Under the pieces are notes generated by a model. The model saw nothing but the letters and a program-made list of their open reading frames with translations, did not search any database and was not told the DNA's origin. A stretch of DNA of 64,000 bases from positions 62,001 through 126,000 of the forward strand of contig DAIDKV010000206.1 of NCBI GenBank assembly GCA_027449865.1, read 5' to 3'. Shown piece after piece: positions 38,493 to 53,538 of this stretch. The translations under genes were made by a program, and so were the position numbers. Source of the stretch: Planctomycetales bacterium. GTDB lineage: Bacteria > Planctomycetota > Planctomycetia > Isosphaerales > Isosphaeraceae. The stretch's first letter is position 1. The number at the start of each line of letters is the position of its first letter.

Positions 38493-40414
38493 CGACGTCC
38501 GGCGACTGGTTGTTGTTGCAGGAACTGCTGGAGCGCGGCGATCCGGCGTTCGTCGATCGCCTGCGCTCCGTGACCGACGCCAACGCCCTCGGCGATTTCG
38601 CCGGGCGATGGTACGAGAACCGGAACGCCAACGCACGACGCCTGCTGCTCGCCTATCTGGAACGGCCGCTCAACGCCTATCGCCACGAGGCACTGGTGAA
38701 GCGGTTGTTCAAGCTCGCCGAGGCCGCCGGCGACGACGCCGTGATGGCGCGGTTCCTGGTCGCCTTCGATCGATCGATCCGACGGGTGGTGCGGAACCGG
38801 GTCCACTTCGAAAGCCAGTATGTTGACAGTCACGAGGAAGCCGAGCGGCTGGCGGACCTCTGGCGATCGCGCGGCATCCAGGACGCTCGCTTCTTCGAGT
38901 ATCCGAACGGGTCGGGAAAATTTTATGCCACCGGATCGTGGACGGAGCCCAGGATCGGGGCGGTCGTCGGGACCACCATGCCGCGCGGCCGGGTCATCGA
39001 TTACCATAACACCGCGATCGGCCGGATCCCGATACTCGACTGGGCCGCCCGGCTCCGCCTCTCCTTTTCCGAACCGCCCCGCGAGGGCGAGCCAACCGAG
39101 GCCGAGCGACGGCAGCTTGAAAAATACCGGCTGTTCTCGCTCCCGACGCGACAGTACCTGAGGCGCCGGGCCTGGCGTTACTTCCGACACCTGGGCAAAA
39201 CCAACCCCGAGCGTTACGTCGCCGCGATCTCCGAAGCGATGGTTCTGTACGAAAATGCCGACGTCGACACCGGTCTCGCGCTGATCGACAACTGGGGCCT
39301 GGTTCACGCGCTTTTCCACCACAGCCCGGTGCTGGTCTCGCGCCCGAACGGATGGGATGTCGCCGAGGACGGTTCGCTCTCGGAGCTGGAGCCCGCGCCG
39401 ATCTTCGAGGATCTCTGGCGATCGGCCCCGCGGGCGATCCTCGACCTGATCGTCCGGGCGCGGTGCCGACCGGTCCGCCAGTGGGCCGTCCGGATGCTGA
39501 AACGCGATCCAGCCGCCCGGTTGGTGGTGACGATCGACGATCTTCTGAACCTGCTCGGTCATGCGGATGAGGAGGTCGTCGCGCTGGCCATCGAATGGCT
39601 GAGCGAGGCGAAAGACCTTTCGACGGTGACGCCCGAACGATGGCTGGCGGTCGCCGAGTCGGCGAGCCCGGGCGCCCTGGAGACGCTGACCGCGATCATC
39701 CGACGTCAGATTGCGCCCGATCAGATCGCGATCGAATCCGCCGCGCGTCTGGCCGCGGCCCGCCCACTGCCGATCGCCCGACTCGGGCTCGACTGGCTGA
39801 AGGCGAAGTTCCCTTCCTCCGACGAGCAACGCCAGGCCCTCTTGCCCCTGCTGGAAGCCGAATGCGAGCCGATCCGTCCCGAGATCCTCGCCTGGCTCCG
39901 GTCAGTGCTTTCGGACGATTTCCGATCCGACGGGCTGCTCGAATTCCTCGACAGCCGACACGCCGACGCCCGCGCCGAGGGCCTCTCCTGGTTCCGCGCC
40001 GAGCCGATGGCACGCGACGATGTGAGCCTCTGGCACCGGCTGATGGAATCGCCGTACGACGACGTCCGCCTGGCGCTCACCACGGAGCTGGAAGCCCGAT
40101 TGCGGCGCGATCGCACCGACGCCCACGACCTGGCCCTCGATTCCGACCGGCTCCGACTGCTCTGGGCCTCGGTGCTGCTGAACGTGAACCGAGGGAGCCG
40201 CTCCAAGCCGGGAGCGATCGAGCAGGTGGCGCGCCGCCTGGCGCACCGGCCCGAGGAGGCCGAATCGCTCCTGCCGATTCTGACGATCGGCCTGCGATCG
40301 CTCCGGGCGCCCGAGCGTCGGGCGGCGATGGCGGCGATTGTCCGACTGGTCGCGACGCGGCCTGATTCCGAGGCGATGGTCCGCGCGGCGCTTCCCGAGT
40401 GGCAATGGGCCTGA
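38489..40414 (+). CDS. Large helical-repeat protein of unknown function
   Basis: No family is recognised. The 641 residues are largely helical. An N-terminal helical region (about 1-100) is followed by a short alpha/beta part (about 115-185, FEYPNGSGKFYATGSWTEPR). A long series of HEAT-like helical pairs runs from about 230 to the end (LDLIVRARCRPVRQWAVRML, LLNLLGHADEEVVALAIEWL, and others). There is no signal peptide. Overlap with msrB suggests translational coupling, yet msrB is secreted and this protein should be cytoplasmic. Confidence 0.65.
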   Translation: MTTSGDWLLLQELLERGDPAFVDRLRSVTDANALGDFAGRWYENRNANARRLLLAYLERPLNAYRHEALVKRLFKLAEAAGDDAVMARFLVAFDRSIRRVVRNRVHFESQYVDSHEEAERLADLWRSRGIQDARFFEYPNGSGKFYATGSWTEPRIGAVVGTTMPRGRVIDYHNTAIGRIPILDWAARLRLSFSEPPREGEPTEAERRQLEKYRLFSLPTRQYLRRRAWRYFRHLGKTNPERYVAAISEAMVLYENADVDTGLALIDNWGLVHALFHHSPVLVSRPNGWDVAEDGSLSELEPAPIFEDLWRSAPRAILDLIVRARCRPVRQWAVRMLKRDPAARLVVTIDDLLNLLGHADEEVVALAIEWLSEAKDLSTVTPERWLAVAESASPGALETLTAIIRRQIAPDQIAIESAARLAAARPLPIARLGLDWLKAKFPSSDEQRQALLPLLEAECEPIRPEILAWLRSVLSDDFRSDGLLEFLDSRHADARAEGLSWFRAEPMARDDVSLWHRLMESPYDDVRLALTTELEARLRRDRTDAHDLALDSDRLRLLWASVLLNVNRGSRSKPGAIEQVARRLAHRPEEAESLLPILTIGLRSLRAPERRAAMAAIVRLVATRPDSEAMVRAALPEWQWA

Positions 40415-40530
40415 CGGCATGTCGTTACGGATCTCGATCCGGGGCCGAGCCGTACGAACTCATCGTGGCGTGGCGGCTCGATGCTCGGTAAAATGAGGGG
40501 GATTCTTCCATCACCGAGCACTCGAGGCCG

Positions 40531-40776
40531 ATGATGCGAGCCGATGCCATCCGTAATGAAGTCCTTCGAATGATCCACCAGGCGCCATTCCGACCGTTCG
40601 TCCTCAGCATGGAGAATGGCGATCGGGTCACGATCGGCCATCCCGAGAATATCGCCTTCGACCCGGAAGGCGGGTCTCCGGATTTCTACGTGATCTCCGG
40701 GCGTATCCGGCTCTTCGGGACCTTCGATGCGGTCTCCAGCGTTGCCACAGCGGATTCGGTGGAGCATCTTGCGTAA
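40531..40776 (+). CDS. Small protein of a planctomycete-type family, function unknown
   Basis: The 81-residue protein has a helix, the phrase APFRPFVLSMENGDRVTIGHPENIAF, and a beta-rich end. This layout (PFRPF, then NG, then HPE) recurs, as I recall, in small planctomycete proteins of unknown role, often beside mobile or toxin-antitoxin genes. Two Met codons begin it (40531, 40534). It lies just upstream of the ParE-type module. Confidence 0.55.
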   Translation: MMRADAIRNEVLRMIHQAPFRPFVLSMENGDRVTIGHPENIAFDPEGGSPDFYVISGRIRLFGTFDAVSSVATADSVEHLA

Positions 40777-40899
40777 CGCGGTGCAGCGGACAAGCCGATC
40801 TCTGGCGTCGGGGCGTGAAGAGGGAGTCGAGGACGGGACTTGCGTCCCAAACCCGATCGAGGGAGACTTGCGGATCTCGTTCTCGCGGAGGGACAATCC

Positions 40900-41133
40900 A
40901 TGTCACTGACCACCGAACAGGTTTTCACGGCCGCACTCGGGTTGCCCGATGCCGTCCGGCTCGAACTGATCGAGGCGCTGATCGACTCCGTAGAACCCGC
41001 CGACCGCCCGCCATTCGACGAGTCCTGGCGGGAGGTCATCCAGCGGCGGTCGGCCGAGTTGGCCTCCGGAAGCGTTGCCGCGGTGCCGTGGGCCGAGGTG
41101 AAGCGACGGGCCCGGGAGACGGCCGGTGGCTGA
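40900..41133 (+). CDS. Addiction-module antitoxin for the ParE-like toxin
   Basis: The 77-residue protein starts at MSLTTEQVFTAALGLPDAVRLELIEALIDS, with GGAGGG 7 nt upstream. This matches the TIGR02574 addiction-module component pattern: an N-terminal helical pair ending LIEALIDSVEP and a C-terminal FDESWREVIQRRSAELASG segment that wraps the toxin. It overlaps the toxin gene by 8 nt, so the two are coupled. Confidence 0.8.
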   Translation: MSLTTEQVFTAALGLPDAVRLELIEALIDSVEPADRPPFDESWREVIQRRSAELASGSVAAVPWAEVKRRARETAGG

Positions 41134-41419
41134 TCTCTGGTTTCACCCGGAGGCCCAGGCCGAGTACGAGGACGCCCTGACCTGGTATCACGCCCGCAGC
41201 CGACAGGCGGCGGAACGTTTCGAGGCCGAGGCCGAACGCGTGCTGACCCTGGTCGCATCCAACCCGGGCCTGTTCCCACGGTACGATGACGAGCATCGCT
41301 TCGCCATGCTGCGGCGGTTCCCGTACAGCTTGGTCTACCGGGTTCTCGCCGACGGGCTCTATGTGATGGCGGTGGCCCATTCGCGCCGGAAGCCGGGCTA
41401 CTGGCACGGGCGAGGCTAA
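41126..41419 (+). CDS. RelE/ParE-family toxin
   Basis: The 97-residue toxin begins at the GTG at 41126 (ADLWFHPEAQAEYEDALTWY). The family signature is clear: the N-terminal helix pair with ARSRQAAERFEAE, LVASNPGLFPRY, and the C-terminal strands RFPYSLVYRVLADGLYVMAVAHSRRKPGYW. ParE members poison gyrase and RelE members cleave mRNA; the HSRRKPGYW ending is common in ParE-like proteins. Paired with the antitoxin immediately upstream. Confidence 0.85.
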   Translation: MADLWFHPEAQAEYEDALTWYHARSRQAAERFEAEAERVLTLVASNPGLFPRYDDEHRFAMLRRFPYSLVYRVLADGLYVMAVAHSRRKPGYWHGRG

Positions 41420-41491
41420 CGAGGCCATCCGGCGGATCCGCGCTGCGGGCCGCCGAACCGGAAAGGTCGTCAGTCCGACCTGGATTTCCAG

Positions 41492-41698
41492 GTGCGTTGG
41501 TTCGATGAGGAGGACAACGAGCAGATACGAAGTCTGATCCAGGCAGAACCGCTCCAGGCTTATCGGAACTCCGACGATGAGATCGTGTGCTGGGAGCTGG
41601 TCCAGATCTTCGCCATCGAGCCGTTCTCGCCGCAGGCCTCCGGCGAGGAAGTGATCGGCTTCTTCGCTTCGCTTGGCGACCTGACCGATCTTCTTTGA
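41492..41698 (+). CDS. Small acidic protein, unknown
   Basis: A 68-residue acidic frame starts at a GTG (RWFDEEDNEQIRSLIQAEPL) and ends GFFASLGDLTDLL. It has no recognised family. It sits between two toxin-antitoxin modules and may be a small accessory or immunity-like protein. The start is uncertain because the sequence reads plausibly a few codons upstream (LDFQV). Confidence 0.4.
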   Translation: MRWFDEEDNEQIRSLIQAEPLQAYRNSDDEIVCWELVQIFAIEPFSPQASGEEVIGFFASLGDLTDLL

Positions 41699-41830
41699 CG
41701 GTTCCGAATCCCGGTCGCCCGGGCACTCATGGCGTCTCGCCGTGGGCCTCGCGAGGGGCATTGCGGTCGGTCCCGGTTGTTACGTAGTATGTCGGTGGAT
41801 CGAAGTCCTGGAGCGTGGAGGTCCGACCCC

Positions 41831-42031
41831 GTGACGACCGCGGTGCAAGCCCTGTTCGAGTCTTTCGACGCCCTTTCCGAGGGCGAGCGGCACGTGGTGG
41901 CGGTCGAACTCCTCCGCCGGGTCGGATCGACGGACGAACTGCCCGACGAAGCCCTGGTGGCTGCGGCCGACGAGGTCTTCCGCGAACTGGACGCGCGGGA
42001 GGCGGCGGATGCCCGAGCCGAGGCGCGGTGA
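41831..42031 (+). CDS. Probable antitoxin of the MazF-like module
   Basis: The 66-residue helical protein starts at the GTG at 41831 (TTAVQALFESFDALSEGERH), preceded by GGAGG. Its VAVELLRRVGSTDELPDEALVAAADEVFRELDAREA resembles the short helical addiction-module antitoxins. It overlaps the MazF-like gene by 23 nt. The earlier in-frame ATG at 41789 is an alternative start. Confidence 0.65.
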   Translation: MTTAVQALFESFDALSEGERHVVAVELLRRVGSTDELPDEALVAAADEVFRELDAREAADARAEAR

Positions 42032-42323
42032 GGTCTGGCTGGTCGACCTCGGGATGGTGGCCAAGGTCCGCCCCTGCCTGGTCCTGAGCGTCCCGATCGG
42101 GCCACAGGATCGCGTCCTCGCCACACTCATCGGACATACGACCAGCACGCGGGGCTCGTCTTTCGAGGTATCGGTGCCGGTGCGATTCCTCCAGGCCGGA
42201 GTTTTCGACGCGCAAAGCCTCGTGACCGTGCCCCACGCCAAGCTCATCCGCAAATTGGGCGACCTGACGCCCGACCAGTTGGCTTCGGTCGAGGATGCCG
42301 TTCGTCGTTGGCTCGGTCTCTGA
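42009..42323 (+). CDS. MazF/PemK-family endoribonuclease toxin
   Basis: The 104-residue protein has the family opening RRGEVWLVDLGMVAKVRPCLVLS, the core VLATLIGHTTSTRGSSFEV, and FLQAGVFDAQSLVTVPHAKL followed by LTPDQLASVEDAVRRWLGL. MazF toxins cut mRNA at short sequences. It forms a second toxin-antitoxin module within 1 kb of the ParE-like one, just outside the left repeat of the accessory region. Confidence 0.85.
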   Translation: MPEPRRGEVWLVDLGMVAKVRPCLVLSVPIGPQDRVLATLIGHTTSTRGSSFEVSVPVRFLQAGVFDAQSLVTVPHAKLIRKLGDLTPDQLASVEDAVRRWLGL

Positions 42324-42420
42324 CGGGCGGAGTCCCCGGGTCAGGATACCGCACTCGCTCCCGGAGTCAGCGAGATCCTTTGGACCATGCGATCCAGTCG
42401 CCTGCCCACGGATGTCAGAC

Positions 42421-42500
42421 CTTGCCGCGCCCGGGGAGCATGTGCGATAGTGGCCGGTCCTCCGATCCGGAGGGCGGTCGGGCCGGTTTTCGAGACCGGC
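42421..42500 (+). repeat. Direct repeat, left copy
   Basis: About 80 nt are shared with 46789-46868. The first part is nearly identical, and a central run of 57 nt (42441-42497) is exactly identical, starting TGTGCGATAG and ending CGAGACC. It contains CCTCCG-ATC-CGGAGG and, on the minus strand, a hairpin GCCGGT-CTCGAAA-ACCGGC. Confidence 0.85.
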
Positions 42501-42533
42501 ACGCCTGAGCCACAAGTCGCTACACTGCCAGAA

Positions 42534-42719
42534 GTTAAGAACACCGACGATCCCGCGGTGCCCTCTGTGGTGCCCTCGGGTCCGAAAGTCCCCGCTCCAG
42601 CTCAATGTGACGGTATCACGCTTGACCCCGACTTGGCAAGGGTGGCTATAGTCTGGGGAGCCTTACCGGGTCATATCAAGCTGGCTATCCTCGCGTTGGC
42701 GGGGGTAACGGGAGGGTAG
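42534..42719 (+). pseudogene. Possible C-terminal tail of a planctomycete integrase gene
   Basis: After the repeat, the open frame reads VPAPAQCDGITLDPDLARV then AIVWGALPGHIKLAILALAGV before a stop. The pattern LDPDLA-V-x-W-x-LP-x-I+x-x-I-A is, from memory, typical of the tail behind tyrosine-recombinase domains in planctomycetes. No catalytic part is present, so this would be a remnant. The assignment is weak and rests on a short match. Confidence 0.3.
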
Positions 42720-43143
42720 ACGAGTCATCGTCTCCCCCGTCCATGCGTCTCCCCGAATGACGTTGAGTGTTATCCAGGCTCAGAGAGCGTCCGTCTCGTC
42801 CGTCTCACCGTCACCCCTCGCATCTTTGCGTCTCCATCGTCTCCGGGACAACAGACCTCAAGTCCTGGCGGGGCTCATCCCTTCGCGTGTTTTCGCGGAT
42901 AATCGCGGTATTTCGGGGGCCAAGCCGGTAGAATCCGGTAGACGTCGATCGGGGTACGGAGTCTCGCCTGATACCTGACTCGCGGTCGATCTCTGACCCG
43001 CCAGAAAGCCCGTATCGATAAAACTCGCTCCTTGTCTTATGCTCACCCTTCCCGCCCCAAGCTTGACATCTAGACATACCCGAGTGGGCCTCCGGCCAAA
43101 TTGATCCGGCTACCCATTCACATCCACCCGCACTCCCCCTGTA
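42720..43143. other. Intergenic stretch before the transglutaminase-like gene
   Basis: No gene, hairpin or clear promoter is supported. It is somewhat less GC-rich than the core genome. Confidence 0.4.
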
Positions 43144-44145
43144 ATGAGCGAATTCTATGAATCCCGTGGCATCGGATTCAAGCACGATCGCATCCATTGT
43201 TTGACTGGCCGACCTATGGCGATGCAGCACCTTCATCCGCTGGGACGGCTGGCTATCGCCGAGCTCTACAACGCACCGGCCGAAGCTGTGCCACGGTTCG
43301 AGATCGCCGAGATGAACCTCATCTCCGCGTTCGGCCTGCCCGGGACCGATGGCATGGACATGGGTGCGATGCTGGCCACGCTCGATGCTTGGGCGAAGCG
43401 GATCGCCGACCACACGCTCAGGAGCATCCACGTCTTCCACAAGTATCGGTCGGACTACGGGACGCTCGCCCGGTTCCGGGTCACGGCGATGCTCCAGGCG
43501 TTGACGCGGGAGTTCGGCGTCCGCTACAACCCGGACCGGATCACCGACCCGCACGTCTGGACCGACCCGGAGGACTCGTTCATCCACGGCCTTCTCGGTC
43601 CCAAGCGAACCGGGACCTGTTCGTCACTGCCCGTCTTGTTGACCGCCCTGGGTCGCCGGATGGGCTATCCGCTCAAGCTGGTACTGGCACCGGGCCATGT
43701 GTTCTGCCGCTGGGACACCCCTGGCGAGCGGTTCAACGTCGAGTACAATGAGCGGGGTCTGAACTCGCATCCCGACGAGCATTACCAGGTATGGCCGACT
43801 CGCTGGACGCCCGAGTTGAGAGAGCACGAGAGAGCCGACCCGATGTTCTTGGTATCACTCTCGCCGCAGCAGGAGTTGGCCCTCTTCGCCTCGTTACGTG
43901 CCCACTCTCTCGATGTGGCCGAGCGGCGGAAGGAAGCCGTATGGGCCATGCGGGTCGCATACCGCCTGTGGCCGACGCATGCCCACGGCATGTGGATCAA
44001 TCACCTCGCGACCAAGGCCGCGTTCCCGGATCGCCAATACCCGGACCGCCCCTGCGACGAGACGGCCGGGCCGAAGGCCGTCAAGCGGCTCCAAGCGGAC
44101 GTGTTCGATCGATGCCTCGAACGATTGTCGATTCCAATCGGCTGA
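43144..44145 (+). CDS. Transglutaminase-like fold protein
   Basis: The 333-residue protein has a helical N-terminal part with FEIAEMNLISAFGLPG, then a transglutaminase/SirB1-like core. The core's likely nucleophile lies in KRTGTCSSLPVLLTALGRRM, its His in APGHVFCRWD and its third position in ERFNVEYNERG. The C-terminal part is helical (LALFASLRAHSLDVAERRKEA), resembling a TPR. The start may instead be the Met at 43216. Related proteins occur widely in planctomycetes; substrate unknown. It lies 15 nt before the Rhs-type toxin gene. Confidence 0.75.
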   Translation: MSEFYESRGIGFKHDRIHCLTGRPMAMQHLHPLGRLAIAELYNAPAEAVPRFEIAEMNLISAFGLPGTDGMDMGAMLATLDAWAKRIADHTLRSIHVFHKYRSDYGTLARFRVTAMLQALTREFGVRYNPDRITDPHVWTDPEDSFIHGLLGPKRTGTCSSLPVLLTALGRRMGYPLKLVLAPGHVFCRWDTPGERFNVEYNERGLNSHPDEHYQVWPTRWTPELREHERADPMFLVSLSPQQELALFASLRAHSLDVAERRKEAVWAMRVAYRLWPTHAHGMWINHLATKAAFPDRQYPDRPCDETAGPKAVKRLQADVFDRCLERLSIPIG

Positions 44146-44160
44146 AAGGGAGGAAGGGCC

Positions 44161-44988
44161 ATGTTGATGACGCACGCCATGGAACCGGACAGCATTCGAC
44201 CCGGCTTCGACGTGACCCTGTTGCCGCAGCGGAACTACGATACCACGCTCGGCCGGTTCACGAGTTTCGATACGTTCGAAGGCGAGACAACCAACCCAAT
44301 TACCCTCAATCACTACATCTACGCGGGAGCCGATCCGGTCGACAATATCGACCCTACCGGCCATACAACGATGCAGGAGGGGCAAGCCGCTCACAAGATC
44401 ATTGGGGCAATCTACCAATTTGACCATCCAGGGAGCTTGGTTGACTTCAGCATCAAGCCATACTCAGGAGGCAAGAGATTACTGGCCGACATCATTAATT
44501 ATACGGGTAGCAATATCAATACAGGACTGTTGGCGGAGATCAAGACTCCCGGGGAGGCTGCTCTCGGCGATAAGCAACTCCAAGGATATGTAAATGATTT
44601 CAATGCAGCACATGCCGCAAATAAGGCGTGGGCCAGGGACAGTGGGTGGGACCCCTCGGTGAAATTCTTCTGGCTCGGTGCGGCCGACCCGAGCTTGGCT
44701 AAGACATTTGGGGTAATTATCGGGAATTTCAACGGCGTTATTGTCTATCAGACATTTACTCCTCCGAGTCCGCCCCCGGTTCCCATTCCCATTCCTGATC
44801 CTGTCATTGAAACCATCACTCGTGACATTTATTCTGGTCTTGAGATCGCCAGGGACGTTATCTATGAGACCATACTGGTCGGCGCGGCATTGGGCGGCGC
44901 GCGTGCCCTCATCTCGAAGGCTATTCCGGCCATCGCCGCCTACGTCGATCTTGGTGAGTCCACAACGGTCGTGACGAGTCTCGCCTGA
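44161..44988 (+). CDS. Orphan Rhs tip with nuclease-like C-terminal toxin domain
   Basis: The 275-residue protein has GGGAGGA 6 nt before the ATG. Residues 24-66 (RNYDTTLGRFTSFD ... NPITLNHYIYAGADPVDNID) are the Rhs-associated core that normally ends a protein of more than 1000 residues; here nothing precedes it. Residues 70-150 look like a PD-(D/E)xK nuclease: LLADIINYTG, then LLAEIKTPGEAALGDKQLQ (Glu126-x-Lys128, Gln139). The end is hydrophobic (ETILVGAALGGARALISKAI). Lower GC content than its neighbours suggests transfer. Orphan tips of this kind serve as spare toxin cassettes in polymorphic toxin systems. Confidence 0.75.
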   Translation: MLMTHAMEPDSIRPGFDVTLLPQRNYDTTLGRFTSFDTFEGETTNPITLNHYIYAGADPVDNIDPTGHTTMQEGQAAHKIIGAIYQFDHPGSLVDFSIKPYSGGKRLLADIINYTGSNINTGLLAEIKTPGEAALGDKQLQGYVNDFNAAHAANKAWARDSGWDPSVKFFWLGAADPSLAKTFGVIIGNFNGVIVYQTFTPPSPPPVPIPIPDPVIETITRDIYSGLEIARDVIYETILVGAALGGARALISKAIPAIAAYVDLGESTTVVTSLA

Positions 44989-45011
44989 TGGTGGGAATCC
45001 GGCGATAGTTG

Positions 45012-45049
45012 CCCCCTATGCCTTTCGTAGTCGTAGGGGGTTGCTTTTT
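45012..45049 (+). terminator. Rho-independent terminator-like hairpin after the Rhs tip gene
   Basis: CCCCCTA (45012-45018) pairs perfectly with TAGGGGG (45034-45040) across a 15-nt loop, followed by TTGCTTTTT. It lies 23 nt after the toxin stop and 13 nt before the next start, so the next gene may be expressed separately from the toxin. Confidence 0.65.
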
Positions 45050-45061
45050 GCGGGAGGACGC

Positions 45062-45508
45062 ATGCAACCGACCTACACCGGCCGCAAAGACATATGTAGG
45101 GATGGTCAAGATCATTTCGCCGAAGTCACGGTTCGGGCATCGCCGGGCCAATCGCCGTCACAGGTAACCCTCTCGACGGAGGCACTTGAGGTCTTGAGGT
45201 CCGTGTTCGGTGCGGACTTCGATGTTCAGCGACATAACGTGCAAGCGGCCGTCGCGGTCCAGATTAAAGTTGCGAATGTAGCCGGCCAGCTGCCTCACGT
45301 CGGAGCCATGTCTTTCCACGCGGAGGTCGTGGACGTCCGAGTATCCGGCAACGCGGGACGTGAGGTGTCGGGATTCCTCCTCTCAGTCGCTGGCATGGAC
45401 GCCATTGGTAAGTATTTGGTGGCGTGGGAACTATCACAGGAGCCCGAACGGCAATCTGGGAAAGATAAGGGCGGAGGGAACGAAGGGGATCAGCCAGGCC
45501 AACAATAA
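45062..45508 (+). CDS. Unknown protein after the toxin, possible immunity protein
   Basis: The 148-residue protein starts at ATG 45062 with GGAGGA just upstream. It is mostly beta strands, including FAEVTVRASPGQSPSQVTL, VQAAVAVQIKVANVAGQL and FHAEVVDVRVSGNAGREVSG, with a charged Gly/Lys-rich tail. No family is recognised. Position directly behind an Rhs toxin tip is where cognate immunity genes normally lie, but the terminator between them weakens simple co-transcription. Confidence 0.55.
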   Translation: MQPTYTGRKDICRDGQDHFAEVTVRASPGQSPSQVTLSTEALEVLRSVFGADFDVQRHNVQAAVAVQIKVANVAGQLPHVGAMSFHAEVVDVRVSGNAGREVSGFLLSVAGMDAIGKYLVAWELSQEPERQSGKDKGGGNEGDQPGQQ

Positions 45509-45530
45509 TCGACAAAGCGGAGATGAAAAT

Positions 45531-46133
45531 TTGATAATACATAGTTACATCAAGGCGTTGCAGTTCGTTGCCAATGATTCATGGGTAAACGCTCTTTGGT
45601 CGGCGACCACGTTCCGGTGGCACCCGCAGAGCAAGGCCCCGCCGGTGATGGGCCTCGTGTTCGATGACGCTGTGGCCGGACAGCGGATCTTCTGCGATTG
45701 GGCGGAGGAGCACGGCAGTGCCGACCCGCTCGATGAGATTCGCGTTGCCATCGTCGAGGGCGACGTCGAAGGCTTGCGGCCCGGCTACACCGTCCACTTG
45801 AGCGGAGATGTCGAGGGCATCCTGGCCAGGGCCACGGCGGAAGGGGTTGTTGTACCCAACGGGCAGTTGCCTTGGATGAGCCGGATGAACCGGATGCATC
45901 CTGTGCCCGGCTCGCCGCCGATGCTGGCCCGGTTCAAGGAGGAGTTCGCCATGCATCGGGAGTACATGCTTGCACCGGTCACCCGGCGGGGCGATGGGCA
46001 ACTCTGGTTCGATGTTGAGCTTGGAATCGTGAAGCACCAGGTGCACTTCCGGCACGTCAGTGAGATCGGTGATAATGACGTCGATTCTGTGGTCAAGTTG
46101 GGCACGGTCTTCGCGATGCCGCAGGACCACTAA
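45531..46133 (+). CDS. Unknown protein, second immunity candidate
   Basis: The start is taken as the TTG at 45531 (IIHSYIKALQFVANDSWVNAL), because GGAGA lies 7 nt upstream and the earlier frame overlaps the preceding gene. That gives 200 residues. It has an alpha/beta pattern: GLVFDDAVAGQRIFCDWAEE, DEIRVAIVEGDVEGLRPGYT, and FDVELGIVKHQVHFRHVSEI. No family is recognised. It is convergent with the TIR-like gene, 6 nt apart. Confidence 0.55.
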   Translation: MIIHSYIKALQFVANDSWVNALWSATTFRWHPQSKAPPVMGLVFDDAVAGQRIFCDWAEEHGSADPLDEIRVAIVEGDVEGLRPGYTVHLSGDVEGILARATAEGVVVPNGQLPWMSRMNRMHPVPGSPPMLARFKEEFAMHREYMLAPVTRRGDGQLWFDVELGIVKHQVHFRHVSEIGDNDVDSVVKLGTVFAMPQDH

Positions 46134-46139
46134 AGACCA

Positions 46140-46688
46140 TTACGGCATCTTGCCCGGCCCCAGCCCGACCACCGCCCGAATTCGGACCGCCAACTTCTCG
46201 CGAAGATCGGCCGGCTCCTTCCAGACGATGTGATTATATTGCCGAGTATCGAAATGAGTCGCGTTGAAGTGGTCCTCTCTGCATAGCCAGATCACCGGTA
46301 GGCGCCGCCCCATCGCAAGCCCCACCTCGAAGTACACGCTCTGATGCCCGGTGAAATCCGCGACGAGGAATCGGCTCTCCCGGATCTCGGCGATGATGCG
46401 GTCATCGATCTTGCCCGTATGCCCAACCGCATCGACTCGGATGGCCCGGTAGCCGGCATCATCCTCGATAGCGGGCTTGATGCCTAGCCGGTAGGCGTCG
46501 CCCATCTCCGGGTTGAACCACATGGCGACGAATGCCTTATCGCTCTCGACGTTCGCCGAGCGGTCGGACTCGACTTCGATCCAGCCGGGAGGGGTGAGCT
46601 TGTAGGTGATGCCGCCGGAATCCGCCTCCATTTCAAGCCAGAAAAGACGCTCGAGGCGTTGCAGCGGACGTGCCGCGATCCAGTCCAT
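46140..46688 (-). CDS. TIR/nucleoside 2-deoxyribosyltransferase-like effector, probably N-terminally truncated
   Basis: The 182-residue protein has a complete Rossmann-like domain: KAFVAMWFNPEMGDAYRLGI (51-70), RVDAVGHTGKIDDRIIAEIR, SRFLVADFTGHQSVYFEVGL (105-124, probable catalytic Glu121) and FDTRQYNHIVWKEPADLREK. Related domains hydrolyse nucleotides or NAD in anti-phage systems, or act as deoxyribosyltransferases. Full-length relatives, as I recall them, have an additional N-terminal region. Here the protein begins abruptly at MDWIAARPLQRLERLFWLE, and the right repeat copy lies about 120 nt upstream, so the gene may have been cut by the rearrangement that made the repeat. Confidence 0.72.
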   Translation of the reverse strand: MDWIAARPLQRLERLFWLEMEADSGGITYKLTPPGWIEVESDRSANVESDKAFVAMWFNPEMGDAYRLGIKPAIEDDAGYRAIRVDAVGHTGKIDDRIIAEIRESRFLVADFTGHQSVYFEVGLAMGRRLPVIWLCREDHFNATHFDTRQYNHIVWKEPADLREKLAVRIRAVVGLGPGKMP

Positions 46689-46788
46689 CAGCGAGCGGGC
46701 GGCCCCACCTGACGACCGTCTCCGGTCGGCCGCCCACCGGCCCGGTCCGGCTGGCTGGCTTCGCGGCCGTCACTGATCGAGGAAGCTC

Positions 46789-46868
46789 TTGCCTCGCCCG
46801 CGGATCGTGTGCGATAGTGGCCGGTCCTCCGATCCGGAGGGCGGTCGGGCCGGTTTTCGAGACCAGCT
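46789..46868 (+). repeat. Direct repeat, right copy
   Basis: This is the counterpart of 42421-42500, in the same orientation, with the same 57-nt identical core (46809-46865). The anticodon-arm-like hairpin has one changed pair (G-T) relative to the left copy. The two copies bracket 4.3 kb with the Rhs tip and TIR-like genes. Confidence 0.85.
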
Positions 46869-46872
46869 TGCT

Positions 46873-46887
46873 GCGGCGTTCCGCCGC
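46873..46887. other. Small perfect hairpin
   Basis: GCGGCG, loop TTC, CGCCGC. It immediately follows the right repeat and precedes the large hairpin, as short msr stem-loops precede the msd stem in retrons (analogy only). Confidence 0.4.
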
Positions 46888-46915
46888 GGTCGAACCTGAG
46901 CCGGAGATTGCTTCC

Positions 46916-47021
46916 CCAGGACCGTTGTTCTTTTCGGCCCCGACGGGATTCCGCCGGGTGCGCTGAGGCAACATCGTTCCGCCCGACGGAATCCCGTCGG
47001 GGCCTCGGTGAACGGCCCTGG
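46916..47021. ncRNA. Large nested hairpin, candidate retron msr-msd or palindromic element
   Basis: An inner stem of 18 perfect base pairs is formed by 46936-46953 (GGCCCCGACGGGATTCCG) and 46987-47004. A mismatch and 4 further pairs continue inward. An outer imperfect stem is formed by 46916-46930 and 47010-47021 (CCAGG...CCTGG). The total is 106 nt, ending 62 nt before the SWIM gene of the SWIM-reverse transcriptase operon. No a1/a2 flanking repeat was found with confidence, so a dispersed palindrome remains an equal alternative. Confidence 0.4.
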
Positions 47022-47083
47022 TCGTCGCCTCGAAGTCGAAATCGGCCCGCCCGCCCCCCGGATCGGAGCGTCGGGGAAACCCC

Positions 47084-48799
47084 ATGCAACTGGACCTCGC
47101 CTACCGCGGCCGGAGCGCCGTGACCTGGAGCCCCGCCGGCGTCGCCGTCGCGCTGGCGCCCAACCTCCGCCGCGACCGCGTCGCCTTCGAGGGGATCCTC
47201 CGCGACCCCCTCCGCTTCCGAGAGGCCGTCGCCGCACTCCACGACGTCGTCATCAGCGACCTCCGCTATCACCCCCGCGATAAGACGGCCTACGAAGCCT
47301 ACAAGGCCACCGAACGCCGTCGCGAGGACCAGTTGCGGCAGGCCGCCGCCAAGCAGACCCAGGCCGCGATCCAGGCGACGATGCCCGAACTGCCCGAGTC
47401 GTACTCCGCCGACCTGGAGAAGCGCTATCGGCGCGCCCGCAAGACCTACTGGAACACCCGCCAGAAGTATTCCAATTATCTTCTCAAGCACGACATCCAC
47501 CTCTGGCGGCTGCTGCTTCCCTGCGACCCGGTCGTCACGGTCACGCCCGACTGCCTGTTCCTGGAGTGCTTCTCGGCCGACGAGAGCAGTTACGGCTGTT
47601 TGACCGTCGATCGATCGGCGTTCGCTCACGAAAGCAACGTCGCCCTCGGGACGACGAACGTCGATTACTCGTGGACGCTCCACGAGCACTTCCAGCGGAT
47701 GCGGAGCTACCGGGAGACGCGGTTCCTGGTCGATCCCTCGGGGTTCGAGGTCCGGCACGAGGCTGGCGACGGCCACCGCGAGGAGAAGATCGAACTCCCC
47801 GCGAGCTGGCTCCGCGGCTTCGCGCAGCTCCAGGCCGCGATGAGCCTCCCCATGCGACGCGTCCCGATCGGCCTCGAGGGATTGTATAACCTGCTCGCTT
47901 TCCTGAAGCGTCACCGGGCCGCGAGGAGCCCCCGCGCGATCCGGTTCGAGCTGGAGCCAGGCCGGGCGCCCTGGGCCGTCCTCGAACCGTGGGAACAGCG
48001 CATCAAGCTGGGCGATCGGCCCTACGATGGACCTCGGACAGAAACCATCCGCACCTGGGGCCGCGACCGCTTGCAGGTCCTTTCCCGACTGCTCCCGATC
48101 CTCGATTCGGCCGACGTCTACCTGCTCGGCACCGGCCTGCCGAGCTTCTGGTCGGTCCAAACCGGACCATTCCGGATGATCCTGGGGCTCTCCGGCTGGA
48201 CAACCAACGACTGGACCGGCGCCTCGGCGCTCGACCAGCTCGCCCCGCCCGGCGCGCCCGACGCCGCCACGATGCAGGCCATCGCCGCCGCGTTCCGGAT
48301 CGATCCCGCCCTGTCTTTCGATCAATTGAAGGCCAGCACGGGCGCCGAGGCCCCCTCGCTGGCGGTCGGCCTGAACCGGTTCGCGATGCTCGGCCAGGTG
48401 ATCCACGACCTTCCAGCCGGTCTCTATCGATGGCGGTCGATCCTCCCCGTGGCGCTCTCGGCCGAGCTGATCGGCCCCGAGAACCCGGAGACGGTCGCCG
48501 CCCGGCAGTACGTCGCTCAGAAGGCGGTGAAGGTCCGCCGCGACGAGGCCCAGGCGAACGGACTTCGTATCCTCGAAGGACGCGTGCTCGCCACCGAGGT
48601 CTCGCTACTCCTCGACGCCGACGGCCGGATGCTCCGCGGCCGATGTTCGTGCTCGTACCACTTCACCGGCGGCCTCCGCCGCGGTCCGTGCCGCCACCTT
48701 CAAGCCCTCCGCGATGCCGCCCGCAAGGCTTCAACCGATCGCTCGACGGCCGCATCCTGGTACGCCGCCCTCTGGAGCGGGGCAGGGGCCCGGCCATGA
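47084..48799 (+). CDS. SWIM zinc-finger protein coupled to the reverse transcriptase
   Basis: The 571-residue protein has a SWIM finger near its C-terminus: Cys521, Cys523, Cys536, His538 (GRCSCSYHF ... GPCRHLQAL), the CxC-xn-CxH form that binds DNA or protein. The N-terminal 515 residues match no family I know. A helical, charged part (about 65-125, AYEAYKATERRREDQLRQAA) is followed by mixed alpha/beta sequence with a beta-rich stretch (DPVVTVTPDCLFLECFSADE). No signal peptide. Its stop overlaps the start of the reverse transcriptase gene (ATGA), so the two are translationally coupled and probably work together. Confidence 0.8.
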   Translation: MQLDLAYRGRSAVTWSPAGVAVALAPNLRRDRVAFEGILRDPLRFREAVAALHDVVISDLRYHPRDKTAYEAYKATERRREDQLRQAAAKQTQAAIQATMPELPESYSADLEKRYRRARKTYWNTRQKYSNYLLKHDIHLWRLLLPCDPVVTVTPDCLFLECFSADESSYGCLTVDRSAFAHESNVALGTTNVDYSWTLHEHFQRMRSYRETRFLVDPSGFEVRHEAGDGHREEKIELPASWLRGFAQLQAAMSLPMRRVPIGLEGLYNLLAFLKRHRAARSPRAIRFELEPGRAPWAVLEPWEQRIKLGDRPYDGPRTETIRTWGRDRLQVLSRLLPILDSADVYLLGTGLPSFWSVQTGPFRMILGLSGWTTNDWTGASALDQLAPPGAPDAATMQAIAAAFRIDPALSFDQLKASTGAEAPSLAVGLNRFAMLGQVIHDLPAGLYRWRSILPVALSAELIGPENPETVAARQYVAQKAVKVRRDEAQANGLRILEGRVLATEVSLLLDADGRMLRGRCSCSYHFTGGLRRGPCRHLQALRDAARKASTDRSTAASWYAALWSGAGARP

Positions 48800-50391
48800 A
48801 CATTTTTCGACGTCTCCTCACGTGGCTCCTCGGCCCAAGCGCGAGCCCAACGCCGCGCTCCGTCCCACCCGCGCCGACGGTCGACCAGGAGTTCCAGCCC
48901 GAGCCGCCCGAGAAGCCGAAGAAGCCCCGCGGCTCGCTCGGCCTCGACGCCTTGGATTACCTGCCGATCACCCGGGGCGAGATCCAGCAGGCGGCCGAGG
49001 GCCGGAACCTGCTCGCCAATCCCTGGTTCGGCCAGCGCGACCTGATCCCGCCCGCCGACGACCCTCGCACCCAGCTCATCGACCGCGCCATGGTCACGCA
49101 GGGCCTGATCGCGCCCGAGCAGCTCGCCGAGATCCACGCGATCGGCGGCGAGATGGACCGCGTCCGGCCAACGTTCGCCTCGATCGAGCACCAGGCCGCG
49201 ATGTCGGGAGAGGCCGCCGTGCAGGCCGATCGCGAGGCCCGCGCCCGGATCAAGGCCCAGAAGAAGGCCGAGGCTGAGAAACGGCGTCAACTCCGCGCCG
49301 AGGCTGTCGCAAGGCGGAAGGCCGAGGACATCGTCTTCCTCGGCCGGGGCGTCTCGGGCCGGCTCGGCGAGCGAGAGAGCCGCGTCGCCGATCTCGAAGC
49401 CGCCGGCCTGCCGATCCTCAGCACGCCCGCCGATCTGGCCCAGGCGATCGGACTCTCGGTCGCCCGCCTCCGATGGCTGGCCTTCCACGCCGAGGTCGCC
49501 ACGCGAACGCATTACATCCACTTTGACGTCCCGAAGAAGAGTGGTGGCGTCCGTCGTCTGAGCGCCCCGCATCGGACGCTCGCCGAAGCCCAGCGCTGGA
49601 TTTTCGAACGGATCGTCTCGCGCCTCCCGGCCGAGCCCGCCGCGCACGGATTTCTGCCGGGCCGAAGTATTCTCACCAACGCCCAGCCACACGCCGGCCG
49701 GGCGATCGTGGTGAACCTCGACCTGGAAGCCTTCTTCCCAAGCATCGGCTTCGGGAGGGTCCGAAAGGTCTTCGAGCGGCTGGGCTACTCGCCGGCGGTC
49801 GCCACGATCCTCGGGTTGATCTGCACCGAATGCCCGAGGCGATCGGTCGTCCTCTCCGGGACGACCTACCACGTCGCGACCGCCCCGCGCGGACTCCCTC
49901 AGGGCGCCTGCACCAGTCCTGGTCTCTCGAACCAGGTCGCGCGCCGACTCGACCGGCGATTGACCGGCCTCGCCACAAAGCTCGGTCTCACCTACACCCG
50001 ATATGCCGATGACCTGACCTTCTCGGGCGACGCCGATCAGGAAAACCGGATCGGCTACCTGATGGCGACGGTCCGCCACATCGCCCACGACGAGGGTTTC
50101 ACGGTCAACGAATCAAAGACCCGCGTGCATCGCCGCAACACGGCGCAAATGGTGACAGGCCTGGTTGTGAACGACCGACCGGGCGTCGCGCGCGACGAGG
50201 TCCGCCGCCTCCGGGCGATCCTGCACCGAGCCCGGCTCGAAGGGCTCGACCGCCAGAACCGCGAGAACCACCCCAACTTCCGTGCCTGGCTCCGGGGCAA
50301 GATCGCGTTCGTGAGGATGGCGAGGCCCGAGGTCGGCGATCGCCTGCTCGCCGAGCTGGAGGCCCTGGAAGAGGACAACCGAAACGGCTAA
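48796..50391 (+). CDS. Retron-type reverse transcriptase, myxobacterial-like, with long N-terminal extension
   Basis: The 531-residue RT has retron hallmarks: the NAxxH motif (Asn295-Ala-Gln-Pro-His299), catalytic YADD (403-406, TRYADDLTFSGD), and the VTG motif (453-455, QMVTGLVVN). Motif A is VVNLDLEAFFPSIGFGRV (first catalytic Asp309), and PRGLPQGACTSPGLSN is the next block. The phrase LSVARLRWLAFH-x(10)-HYIHFDVPK strongly resembles what I recall of Myxococcus retron RTs such as Mx162, which also carry an N-terminal extension. Here residues 1-205 are Pro-rich then a basic coiled region (ARIKAQKKAEAEKRRQ). No recombinase or maturase domain, so not a group II intron RT. The partner is the SWIM protein. 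Confidence 0.88.
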   Translation: MNIFRRLLTWLLGPSASPTPRSVPPAPTVDQEFQPEPPEKPKKPRGSLGLDALDYLPITRGEIQQAAEGRNLLANPWFGQRDLIPPADDPRTQLIDRAMVTQGLIAPEQLAEIHAIGGEMDRVRPTFASIEHQAAMSGEAAVQADREARARIKAQKKAEAEKRRQLRAEAVARRKAEDIVFLGRGVSGRLGERESRVADLEAAGLPILSTPADLAQAIGLSVARLRWLAFHAEVATRTHYIHFDVPKKSGGVRRLSAPHRTLAEAQRWIFERIVSRLPAEPAAHGFLPGRSILTNAQPHAGRAIVVNLDLEAFFPSIGFGRVRKVFERLGYSPAVATILGLICTECPRRSVVLSGTTYHVATAPRGLPQGACTSPGLSNQVARRLDRRLTGLATKLGLTYTRYADDLTFSGDADQENRIGYLMATVRHIAHDEGFTVNESKTRVHRRNTAQMVTGLVVNDRPGVARDEVRRLRAILHRARLEGLDRQNRENHPNFRAWLRGKIAFVRMARPEVGDRLLAELEALEEDNRNG

Positions 50392-50641: not shown

Positions 50642-52969
50642 TCAGCCGGCCTGCCGCCCCTCGGGCGATCTCGGCGCGGTCGGGGTGCGCGCGCGCTTCC
50701 GCGTCGAGCGCGACGGCGGCCTGCGCGGCGACCTCTTGACCTCCTCGTCCGCACTGCCGAGCTTGCGTTCGAGCGAGAGAACCGCGGCCTTCGCCCGGGC
50801 CGAGACCCGGCCGTTGTCGTCGTCGATCGCCTCTTTCAGGGCCGGCAGGCACTTCTCCGTGCCGACGGTGTCCAGCATCTGGCAGGCGAAGGTCCGGGCG
50901 TCGGGCGACTCGTCCTTCAGCAGGTTAATCAGCGCCGGCTCGGCCAGCGGGCCGTAGTCGCGAATCGCCTTCATGGCCTGCGAACGGACGGCCCGATCCT
51001 GTCCCACCGCGACGATCCGAGCAATGACCTCGGGGTCCTTGCTACGGGCAAGGGCCTCCAGCGCCGTCGGGCGGGCGAACCGTCGATCCGCTTTGTCTTC
51101 CAGAACGGCGAGCAGGATCTTCTCGTCACCCGGCCGCGCCCAGACTCCGATCGTGCCCACCGCGTCGGTCCGGGCGTTGCTCGTGTGGTCCTGGATCAAC
51201 GCCTTCATCGCCGAGACCACCTCGCCCTGCAACTGCGGCACGACCGGCATCCTGCGAAGCCTCTGGACAGCGCGGAACCTCGTCCCCTCATCCTCCGACA
51301 TCGTCTCGGCCAGCGCGATCCGGACGGCGTCGAGCCGGGCGGTCTCGCGGCCGCGCTCCACCGCCTCGTCGATCGCCTTGCGGCCCTCGGTTCCCTCGGC
51401 GTCCCGGAGCCGTTGCAGGGCCTGCTTCGCCAGCATCGAGACGGCGGGCGGATGCTCGTACCAGGAAGCCGCGGCCAGGGCCGGCAGATCCTTGATCGTC
51501 GCCCATCGGACAAGCCCGTGCGCCGCCATGTTCGCCTCGTTGGGGTGCTCTAACAGGATCGCCGAGAGGGCCTGGCCGATCTCGGCCTGCCTCGGCTCGT
51601 CGGCGGCCGGCGCATTCGAGTCCAGCCATCGGAGCGCGTCCAGCCGCTCCGATTTCCCGCCCCGCAAGCCCGCGAGCGCCTCGGCCGCTCCGGGCCCCTT
51701 CAACGCCACCGGCGCCGGCGGCGCGACCGGGACCGGAACGGGGAACGGTCGGCCGGGCGCCGCCTCGATCGGCCGGGGCTCCCCCTTCGTCAACGCCCGG
51801 GGCTCCCCCGGCGCGGGACTGAAGGGGCCGGCGATCTGCTCTCGCCCGCCGTCCATCGACGCTTCCCAGACCTTCGACGCCACCGTTAGGGCGACCGCCA
51901 CAAGGGCCGCCGGGACGATCAGCGCCCCGCCCATCAGCCCCCAGGCCAGCACCGGGACTTCTGGAACCTCGCGCTCATCCTCGGGGATGCCGATCGCCTC
52001 GGCGTGCGGGTCGGCGATGATCCGGGCGCGCGGTTTCGCACCCGCCGCGAACGAGCGGCGATACTGCACCGCACAGCTCAGCACACACCACGGTATCGTG
52101 AACAGCACGCCGAGACCCAGCAGCAACATCCCCGACGTCGCCAACGCCATCATCGCCAGGATGAACAGCGCCGCCGAAATCCAGTCTCGGCCGAGCGCCC
52201 TCAGGCTCATCTTCAGCGCCGCCCAGGCCCCCATCCGGCCATCGACGATCAGGGGAATCGAGAAGAACGACAGCCCGAAGAACACCAGACCGGGGATGAA
52301 GAGGAAGACAAAACCGAGCATCCCCAGGACGCCCATCAGGATGCCCGCCTTGAACAGCCGCTCGGCCCGGCCCTCGCCGCCGATCGAGAAGAGGTCGCCC
52401 ACCGCGACCTCGCCGCCATCGACCTGCTTCAGCGCCATCCCGAACAGACCGCCGTAAACGATCCCCTGAACCCCCATGTTCAGGAAAAACATGGTTCCCA
52501 TCACCACAGGAACCGCGATCGGCCCCAGCAGCCCAACCCCGATAGCCAGCCCGGCCGCCATCCCGAGCTGGAGGATGATCCCAAGTCCCATCAGGCTCAG
52601 GTAGAGAACGAACGTCGTGAGGATCCAGGTCCCGAGCTGTTCGCGGAGCAACCGCCAGGCGACCCCGATCGCTCCCCACGAGATCGCCCGTCCCGATGGA
52701 CCCGGCGGGCCGACCTCATCCTCTTCCCAGACGCCGGAAGACGCGTGGACCGGAGGCGCCGCGGGCGCCGACTCGTAGACCGCCTCCTCGACCATTTCCG
52801 CAACCACGAGCGACGGCGCCGGCTCCGGCGCCATTGCCGGTGTCGCCATCGGGACCACGATCGAGGCCCCGCACCCCGGACACTTCCCCTTCCGCCCGGC
52901 CGCCGCATCAGCCACCGTCAGCTTCTTTCCGCAGCCCTCTGCCAGGCAATGAAACCGAATCATCGTCAT
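50642..52969 (-). CDS. Zinc-ribbon, multi-membrane-segment protein with HEAT repeats
   Basis: The start is taken as MTMIRFHCLAEGCGKKLTV (775 residues). A zinc ribbon (about 5-45, with CGKK and CPGCGASIVV) opens the protein. Five to six membrane segments (about 115-320) follow, with glycerophosphoryl-permease-like GLFGMALKQVDGGEVAVGDLF. A further membrane helix (about 345-365), a Pro-rich linker and HEAT-like helical repeats (about 430-740) come next, then a basic tail. Function unknown; the architecture is typical of planctomycete envelope proteins. Confidence 0.7.
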   Translation of the reverse strand: MTMIRFHCLAEGCGKKLTVADAAAGRKGKCPGCGASIVVPMATPAMAPEPAPSLVVAEMVEEAVYESAPAAPPVHASSGVWEEDEVGPPGPSGRAISWGAIGVAWRLLREQLGTWILTTFVLYLSLMGLGIILQLGMAAGLAIGVGLLGPIAVPVVMGTMFFLNMGVQGIVYGGLFGMALKQVDGGEVAVGDLFSIGGEGRAERLFKAGILMGVLGMLGFVFLFIPGLVFFGLSFFSIPLIVDGRMGAWAALKMSLRALGRDWISAALFILAMMALATSGMLLLGLGVLFTIPWCVLSCAVQYRRSFAAGAKPRARIIADPHAEAIGIPEDEREVPEVPVLAWGLMGGALIVPAALVAVALTVASKVWEASMDGGREQIAGPFSPAPGEPRALTKGEPRPIEAAPGRPFPVPVPVAPPAPVALKGPGAAEALAGLRGGKSERLDALRWLDSNAPAADEPRQAEIGQALSAILLEHPNEANMAAHGLVRWATIKDLPALAAASWYEHPPAVSMLAKQALQRLRDAEGTEGRKAIDEAVERGRETARLDAVRIALAETMSEDEGTRFRAVQRLRRMPVVPQLQGEVVSAMKALIQDHTSNARTDAVGTIGVWARPGDEKILLAVLEDKADRRFARPTALEALARSKDPEVIARIVAVGQDRAVRSQAMKAIRDYGPLAEPALINLLKDESPDARTFACQMLDTVGTEKCLPALKEAIDDDNGRVSARAKAAVLSLERKLGSADEEVKRSPRRPPSRSTRKRARTPTAPRSPEGRQAG

Positions 52970-53538
52970 ACCCCGGGAGATGATGAGAAATCGGAGTGCC
53001 AAGTCTACCAATTTTGAAGCCCATCGCACAGGACTTGCGCAAAAAATGCGTCATCCCTGTCTATTCCGTCCCTAAATAACGCCACAACAGCGAAATTCAC
53101 ATGTATATTTCGTAAATGAGGCGGTTTGACACTCGGGCAAACGCACACGATCGGGCTTCCCCGGACCGAAATGTTTCGGAGCTTCCTCCTACAGGCGTCA
53201 GTCCTCTCGTCGATCGACGAGGGTCTTCCGCAGAAGCGAATATCTGGAATTCTTTGTAGGAGCCGGCTCCAGCCGGCGATCGACGCGAAAGCTTCGGCTT
53301 CGACCGCGTCGGGAGCTACAGGGGATCGGCCCTCTCGTCGATCGACGAGAGTCCTCCGCCGGAGTTTTCGATTTCGTGAGTCACGGATCGAGCCCGAGCA
53401 CCGTAGAATGGGGTGGAGCAAGCGGGCGGAGCAAGACGATCCGACCTCCCCGATCGATCACCCGGAACGGAACCGCCGCGGGGTCTGCAACGGACCCATG
53501 ACCGCACGAGCCGTCCGTCCGAACAGGGAGCGACACCC
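52970..53538. other. Long intergenic region with AT-rich leader and REP-like elements
   Basis: Positions 53060-53120 are AT-rich (probable promoter zone of the minus-strand gene). From 53202 to 53351 lie palindromes and a REP-like unit described separately. No protein gene is supported. Confidence 0.5.
53202..53316 (+). repeat. 115-bp direct repeat, left copy, with a REP-like unit
   Basis: This ungapped 115-nt segment matches 54862-54976 at about 90 percent (11 differences counted). It begins with the palindrome CTCGTCGATCGACGAG and contains a REP-like unit (53256-53280) starting GTAGGAGCCGGCTCC and ending CCGGCGAT. A further palindrome copy lies at 53332-53351. Confidence 0.85.

Follow-up and report, generated by a model that had tools for sequence, protein, structure and literature searches.

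Most known retron effectors are enzymes or membrane proteins. Retrons are sorted into 13 types, and their complexes of reverse transcriptase (RT), noncoding RNA (ncRNA) and DNA restrain an effector until a phage trigger occurs (PMC12548924). The retron ncRNA is bounded by the inverted repeats a1 and a2, has a conserved G adjoining and carries the msd hairpin (PMC8989520). One type IX retron has a winged-helix protein that binds the stem of the multicopy single-stranded DNA (msDNA), and a phage helix-turn-helix protein triggers the system by mimicking it (PMC13405049). For type XIII, PADLOC-DB holds the protein models RT_XIII, SWIM_XIII, HEAT-ARM_XIII and WGR_XIII. The type XIII classification is reportedly owed to Mestre et al. 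2020, and our literature search found no known mechanism for this type. In this study, we analyzed a stretch of 64,000 nucleotides (the window) from a Planctomycetales bacterium (contig DAIDKV010000206.1, positions 62,001 to 126,000). It contains a type XIII retron, complete but physically interrupted, in a planctomycete of the Isosphaeraceae family; the parts of the retron lie as follows (window positions):

38489-40414, + strand: HEAT-ARM_XIII gene, 641 amino acids, first gene of the retron (PADLOC PDLC02922, E 3e-189)
46833-47062, + strand: retron ncRNA (msr-msd), just upstream of the SWIM gene, recognized by fold, covariance model and covariation
47084-48799, + strand: SWIM_XIII gene, ATG start, 571 amino acids (PADLOC PDLC02972, E 4e-175)
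48796-50391, + strand: RT_XIII gene, ATG start, 531 amino acids (PADLOC PDLC02956, E 1.4e-155)

The identity of the locus as a type XIII retron is nearly certain. The PADLOC-DB models SWIM_XIII, RT_XIII and HEAT-ARM_XIII cover most of the length of the three proteins. Because the SWIM and RT proteins match SWIM_XIII and RT_XIII, the two belong to a catalogued retron type, and their genes adjoin as type XIII neighbors do; the HEAT-ARM gene of this type is also present and co-evolving, in an operon interrupted by a 6.4-kb insertion. A preliminary description of this DNA had presented SWIM and RT as an undescribed system. This novelty does not stand, as SWIM, RT and HEAT-ARM together already constitute retron type XIII in PADLOC-DB, and the coordinates of the pair omit a covarying msr-msd RNA upstream and a third gene 6.7 kb upstream. 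What it said of the pair itself was borne out. The RT, proposed as a retron RT from its NAxxH, VTG and YADD motifs, does contain NAQPH, YADD and VTG, and matches Pfam RVT_1 (E 3.7e-19) in addition to RT_XIII. The 571-residue SWIM protein overlaps it as described: both open reading frames (ORFs) lie on the + strand and share 4 nt (ATGA), and they are the tightest pair in the window. Pfam and NCBIfam assigned no domain to the window SWIM protein.

A total of 84,980 species genomes were scanned for relatives. This yielded 38 loci with a closely homologous SWIM protein (42-63% identity), spread over Planctomycetota, Verrucomicrobiota and Myxococcota. At 33 of them SWIM is followed directly by the RT; of the remaining five, three are on contigs that break off within SWIM or shortly after it. 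The SWIM-RT coupling claimed earlier is therefore real and not due to chance, and the pairing recurs across the three phyla. The retron motifs are well kept in the 33 RT relatives (YxDD in 33, VTG in 32 and NAxxH in 31). In most loci 200-950 bp separate the two genes; in the window and in a small number of other loci they touch.

Clustering the neighbors of the relatives revealed a gene of about 600 amino acids directly upstream of SWIM, and a tblastn search with this HEAT-ARM protein located the window homologue at 38492-40408. The window protein is 51% identical to the homologue of Aquisphaera insulae, which itself lies directly upstream of the ncRNA and SWIM. HEAT-ARM adjoins SWIM in every relative that has the RT and a usable left flank. 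The distance matrices of HEAT-ARM, SWIM and RT (35 loci) are correlated at r 0.90-0.93, a level reached by 0 of 2000 permutations (maximum 0.27), and the same two loci (L146 and L147) are the nearest relatives of the window for all three genes. These results show that HEAT-ARM, SWIM and RT are conserved as one co-evolving unit. Another candidate for the third gene, the downstream - strand HEAT gene at 50642-53029, was rejected as a generic HEAT protein with just 22.6 bits to HEAT-ARM_XIII. A genome scan with the 1972-residue HEAT-ARM model, which is of the wrong subtype, gave only generic partial matches. ARAGORN also predicted a tRNA-Arg within the HEAT-ARM ORF (40239-40321), which was treated as a probable false positive.

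Rfam gave no match in the window, and the ncRNA therefore had to be located by comparison. A conserved RNA was first seen in the SWIM-RT gaps of relatives, and the same motif stands upstream of SWIM in the window. It follows the retron plan, with an a1/a2 stem, GAGACC and two hairpins, that of msr and the long one of msd:

from 46833, + strand: ncRNA a1 (a2 extends to 47062)
about 46860-46865, + strand: priming-G region GAGACC, just after a1
46871-46889, + strand: msr hairpin, within the ncRNA
46936-47004, + strand: msd hairpin, the expected msDNA stem-loop, a 23-bp duplex as DNA

The full RNA (46833-47062) folds at -140.6 kcal/mol (z -6.9), and compensatory changes were present at 22 of the 30 consensus pairs in an alignment of 36 ncRNA copies. 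A first covariance model found a single copy in the genome of the window (46847-47049, 158 bits). A second model (R2), which avoids circularity by using only loci with the RNA between SWIM and RT and neither the window nor its compact relatives, matched the window ncRNA with 137.9 bits (E 5e-32). Among 13 Isosphaeraceae-family copies, the structure of 71 pairs had a covariation of 0.303 against 0.134 +- 0.011 for shuffled alignments (0 of 500 reached it), and every slid version scored below the named structure. The msd helix shows double-sided changes at 18 of 24 pairs in 13 relatives, and the complementary DNA strand of this hairpin folds with z -6.3 into the 23-bp duplex.

The ncRNA is present in all 42 complete loci counted, including the window. 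Its position shifts even within one family, and it can occupy the site before SWIM, the SWIM-RT gap or both: it lies solely between SWIM and RT in 24 loci and solely before SWIM in nine, the window among them, and the remaining loci carry two or three copies. Two or three copies were observed in L042, L046, L049, L050, L055, L056 and L156, and also in L090 and L096; they differ mainly in the msd stem. One multi-copy type XIII retron may make several msDNAs.

The window differs from its relatives in the distance from HEAT-ARM to SWIM, which is 6673 bp in the window versus 18-996 bp in 44 relatives. Relatives of the same family are compact, including two of the same genus (L147 and L158), and where their ncRNA stands before SWIM it lies 43-84 bp past the HEAT-ARM stop. 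The junctions of the intervening block were set by alignment to the same-genus loci. Since these relatives lack the block, it is, as judged from sequence, a recent insertion in the lineage of the window. The insertion left intact the stop codon of HEAT-ARM and also the element TGTGCGATAGTGG, which relatives keep directly after that stop and which we read as promoter-like. The GC content of the insert is 0.65 and 0.60 versus 0.68-0.69 in the retron genes. The block and its contents are as follows:

40415-46803: inserted block, between the HEAT-ARM stop and the promoter-like element of the ncRNA, absent in all relatives
within 40900-42323: two toxin-antitoxin-like pairs, one of Unstab_antitox/ParE and one of a small ORF followed by a PemK/MazF-like toxin
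42421-42500, + strand: left copy of an 80-bp direct repeat, with the promoter-like element, a1 and GAGACC
within 43144-46688: genes for a transglutaminase-like protein and for an RHS-type tail protein whose end is possibly a toxin, and an unassigned ORF of 257 amino acids
within 43144-46688, - strand: TIR-like gene (PADLOC TIR effector, 51 bits)
46788-46867, + strand: right copy of the 80-bp direct repeat, reaching into the 5' part of the real ncRNA

The assignment of the tail protein as RHS-like is our own reading of its sequence. The preliminary description had placed the pair at the edge of an accessory island; the link to this island holds, but the island lies inside the system and not beside it. 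The copies of the direct repeat are 94% identical and are made of the right end of the insert, the promoter-like element and a1. A genome search found no further comparable copy, and the left copy has no covariance-model match and no functional ncRNA behind it. This arrangement suggests that the right 4.4 kb of the insert may stem from a duplication or recombination event at the 5' end of the ncRNA. An assembly error at the repeat is possible, but it would leave the sequence directly past HEAT-ARM unexplained.

The insertion might also mean that the locus is a decaying remnant, in which HEAT-ARM has been uncoupled from ncRNA, SWIM and RT and the retron no longer functions here. Two observations fit such decay: among 45 loci, a separation of more than 1 kb occurs in the window alone, and the insert contains the 5' end of the ncRNA as a truncated copy. 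We nevertheless consider it unlikely. The three ORFs are open with every catalytic and zinc residue in place, neither the a1/a2 stem nor the msd stem is disrupted, and the divergence of HEAT-ARM keeps pace with that of SWIM and RT. The sparing of the HEAT-ARM stop and of the promoter-like element also argues against it.

The structures of the two partner proteins of the RT were also predicted. The N-terminal 515 residues of the SWIM protein, earlier regarded as unknown, are predicted to form a PCNA-like clamp and a winged helix:

47183-48205, + strand: PCNA-like two-domain sliding-clamp fold in the predicted model, residues 34-374, with a helical insertion at about 68-136
48206-48448, + strand: winged-helix region, residues about 375-455, from the helix/strand order in the model
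48644-48697, + strand: SWIM zinc finger CxCx12CxH, residues 521-538, CSCSYHFTGGLRRGPCRH

The AlphaFold2 (AF2) model, made with 48 homologues, has a predicted local distance difference test (pLDDT) score of 80.7 and a predicted template modeling (pTM) score of 0.78. In a Foldseek search of the Protein Data Bank (PDB), the 50 matches listed were sliding clamps (PCNA, 9-1-1 and one bacterial beta clamp), the best with E 6e-7 and probability 1.0. Residues 34-374 aligned by VIA-align to a Sulfolobus PCNA subunit with Z 15.9 (219 of 245 residues, root-mean-square deviation 2.9), far above the Z of 7-8 typical for models without a clear relative. Matches in BFVD, a viral structure library, were dominated by viral PCNA and beta clamps. 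It is therefore very probable that this region is predicted correctly as a complete PCNA-type sliding-clamp fold. R44, R46, R244, R327, R329 and R335 are invariant or nearly so among the SWIM homologues; by our own reading of the secondary-structure order, conserved arginines lie on helices matching the DNA-facing helices of clamps and would line the channel. Weak DprA_WH and MarR matches occurred in the winged-helix region of homologues. The zinc ligands C521, C523, C536 and H538 are each kept in about 95% (at least 90%) of the 48 homologues, and Pfam SWIM matches 25 of these homologues but not the window protein. No report of a clamp fold was found in the literature on type XIII or on SWIM or clamp proteins with retrons, a search that did not cover the founding type XIII paper.

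The AF2 model of HEAT-ARM (pLDDT 92) is an alpha-solenoid in which residues 99-183 form a small alpha/beta insert. In the PDB it matched generic ARM/HEAT solenoid scaffolds (Z at most 11.3), and the comparison gave no enzyme or membrane-disrupting fold. The clamp-SWIM protein and HEAT-ARM are the only effector candidates at the locus. Neither has an enzyme fold in its predicted structure, and the RT is the sole catalytic fold found; because of this, binding to DNA or to replication proteins, and not an enzyme reaction, is the probable mode of action of the effector.

On this basis, we consider it reasonably likely that the locus is a split type XIII retron whose clamp-SWIM/ARM-solenoid effector is restrained by RT and msDNA. 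The RT would prime from the conserved G after a1, and its copy of msd would be an msDNA that carries a long hairpin. The RT-msDNA particle would be bound by the ARM solenoid and by the clamp-winged-helix-SWIM protein, the latter probably via its winged helix, and both would be kept inactive. The trigger would be a phage that interferes with the replication fork, the msDNA or the RT. Release would put clamp-SWIM onto DNA as a ring or half-ring, with its winged helix and zinc finger, the ARM solenoid serving as scaffold; replication would be blocked and the infected cell would cease growth (abortive infection). This effector step is the more tentative part, and we would not yet call it likely.

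Several points weigh against this model. The msDNA, the inhibition, the trigger and the toxicity are steps that we infer. Sequence searches of Pfam and the PDB gave no match to PCNA, so that the clamp homology is structural only; the PDB sequence search found no relative of the SWIM protein at all. The clamp model is of a single chain, and a closed ring around DNA is a conjecture. Two close SWIM homologues (L058, 7852-9504, and L063, 8262-9938) have no RT or ncRNA in the sequence examined. In addition, co-expression of HEAT-ARM may have been lost, since the insertion removed the short HEAT-ARM/ncRNA junction.

It is also conceivable that clamp-SWIM is a decoy or sensor and not a toxin, competing with or sensing the phage clamp or replisome, with the msDNA mimicking a fork and HEAT-ARM or a host factor producing the effect. 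The predicted PCNA-like fold fits this idea, phages encode clamps of their own (several among the BFVD matches), and a winged helix that binds msDNA has precedent (PMC13405049). However, HEAT-ARM likewise lacks an enzyme or membrane-disrupting fold in the structure comparison, and we regard a decoy or sensor role as unlikely, to the same degree as decay of the locus.

The N-terminus of the RT bears on a further alternative. It precedes the retron RT domain with these two features:

48796-48834, + strand: amphipathic N-terminal motif MNIFRRLLTWLLG, before a Pro-rich linker
RT residues about 200-525: retron RT domain, after the amphipathic motif and Pro-rich linker

This motif is present in most of the RT relatives and, judging from its sequence, could serve either as a docking (PIP-like) peptide or as a membrane anchor. 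As an anchor it would suit a membrane-tethered machine, in which the hydrophobic N-terminus holds the complex and loss of msDNA frees clamp-SWIM from the membrane; apparent transmembrane helices replace the motif in L057 and L075. The motif is, however, internal in L042, L045 and L078, shortened in several Gemmataceae, and also compatible with a clamp docking peptide (h-x-x-a-a), and we consider a membrane tether improbable. A second retron-like RT was observed in the same genome (G000:C58:75204-76235; L010 and L169). Its best PADLOC models are RT_other and RT_outgroup, and it has no SWIM neighbor and no type XIII ncRNA match.

That SWIM and RT form an undescribed two-gene system, as their 4-nt overlap and tight pairing might suggest, can hardly be correct, since all parts match PADLOC type XIII models and the recurrent HEAT-ARM gene and ncRNA of the relatives refute it.

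By classification, then, the system is already known and is a further member of type XIII; what our results add is a predicted clamp fold, an ncRNA that is defined and mobile, and the recent insertion that splits the locus. It shares all three type XIII proteins, in the order HEAT-ARM, SWIM, RT. It differs in its split by 6.4 kb and in an ncRNA that stands before SWIM, not between SWIM and RT. The HEAT-ARM of the window is the small form (PDLC02922, about 600 amino acids), whereas the large HEAT-ARM operons of Gemmataceae and Archangium (L089-L097) carry a pair of large HEAT-ARM genes (about 1100 and 2160 amino acids). These operons have in common with the window a SWIM protein of 31-36% identity, RT homologues and a divergent ncRNA with weaker matches (27-49 bits), but their ncRNA is often at the 5' end of the operon and sometimes duplicated. 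The shifting position of the ncRNA and the 6.4-kb insertion indicate that ncRNA, effector genes and RT can separate, and neighborhood-based annotation can therefore miss complete systems. The mapped ends and covariation of the ncRNA open the way to msDNA detection and retron engineering for type XIII.

A more distant likeness is found in six planctomycete genomes (L160-L165), where SWIM proteins with 24-30% identity to clamp-SWIM lie beside a large HEAT-like protein, identified as DUF6493/DUF7824/DUF7825 in the three cases scanned. The SWIM protein of these loci is shorter, and neither an RT nor an ncRNA covariance-model match was found at them. These six loci suggest that an older SWIM-plus-solenoid module may later have gained RT and ncRNA. 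It is possible, although we give it slightly less than an even chance, that a PCNA-like DNA clamp is the core of type XIII retrons, and that a bacterial clamp/ARM-solenoid module, also seen in RT-less form as SWIM-DUF6493, came to be controlled by RT and msDNA as a non-enzymatic effector at replication forks.

The type IX retron Kva2 is alike in its winged-helix partner and in using RT and msDNA as sensor, but its effector is a HEPN RNase, of which none was found in the window locus (PMC13405049). The closest structural likeness is to the PCNA and 9-1-1 clamps, with which the window SWIM protein shares the predicted two-domain fold over the whole length of that fold (Z 15.9), although sequence similarity was not found and the protein adds a helical insertion, a fused winged helix and a SWIM finger. 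This predicted fold occurs here in bacteria, whose replicative clamp is the beta clamp of three domains, in contrast to the two of PCNA (PMC8357120). The predicted clamp fold would bring a PCNA-type structure into bacterial immunity and gives a concrete idea of how the type XIII partner might act, namely on replication forks or phage clamps.

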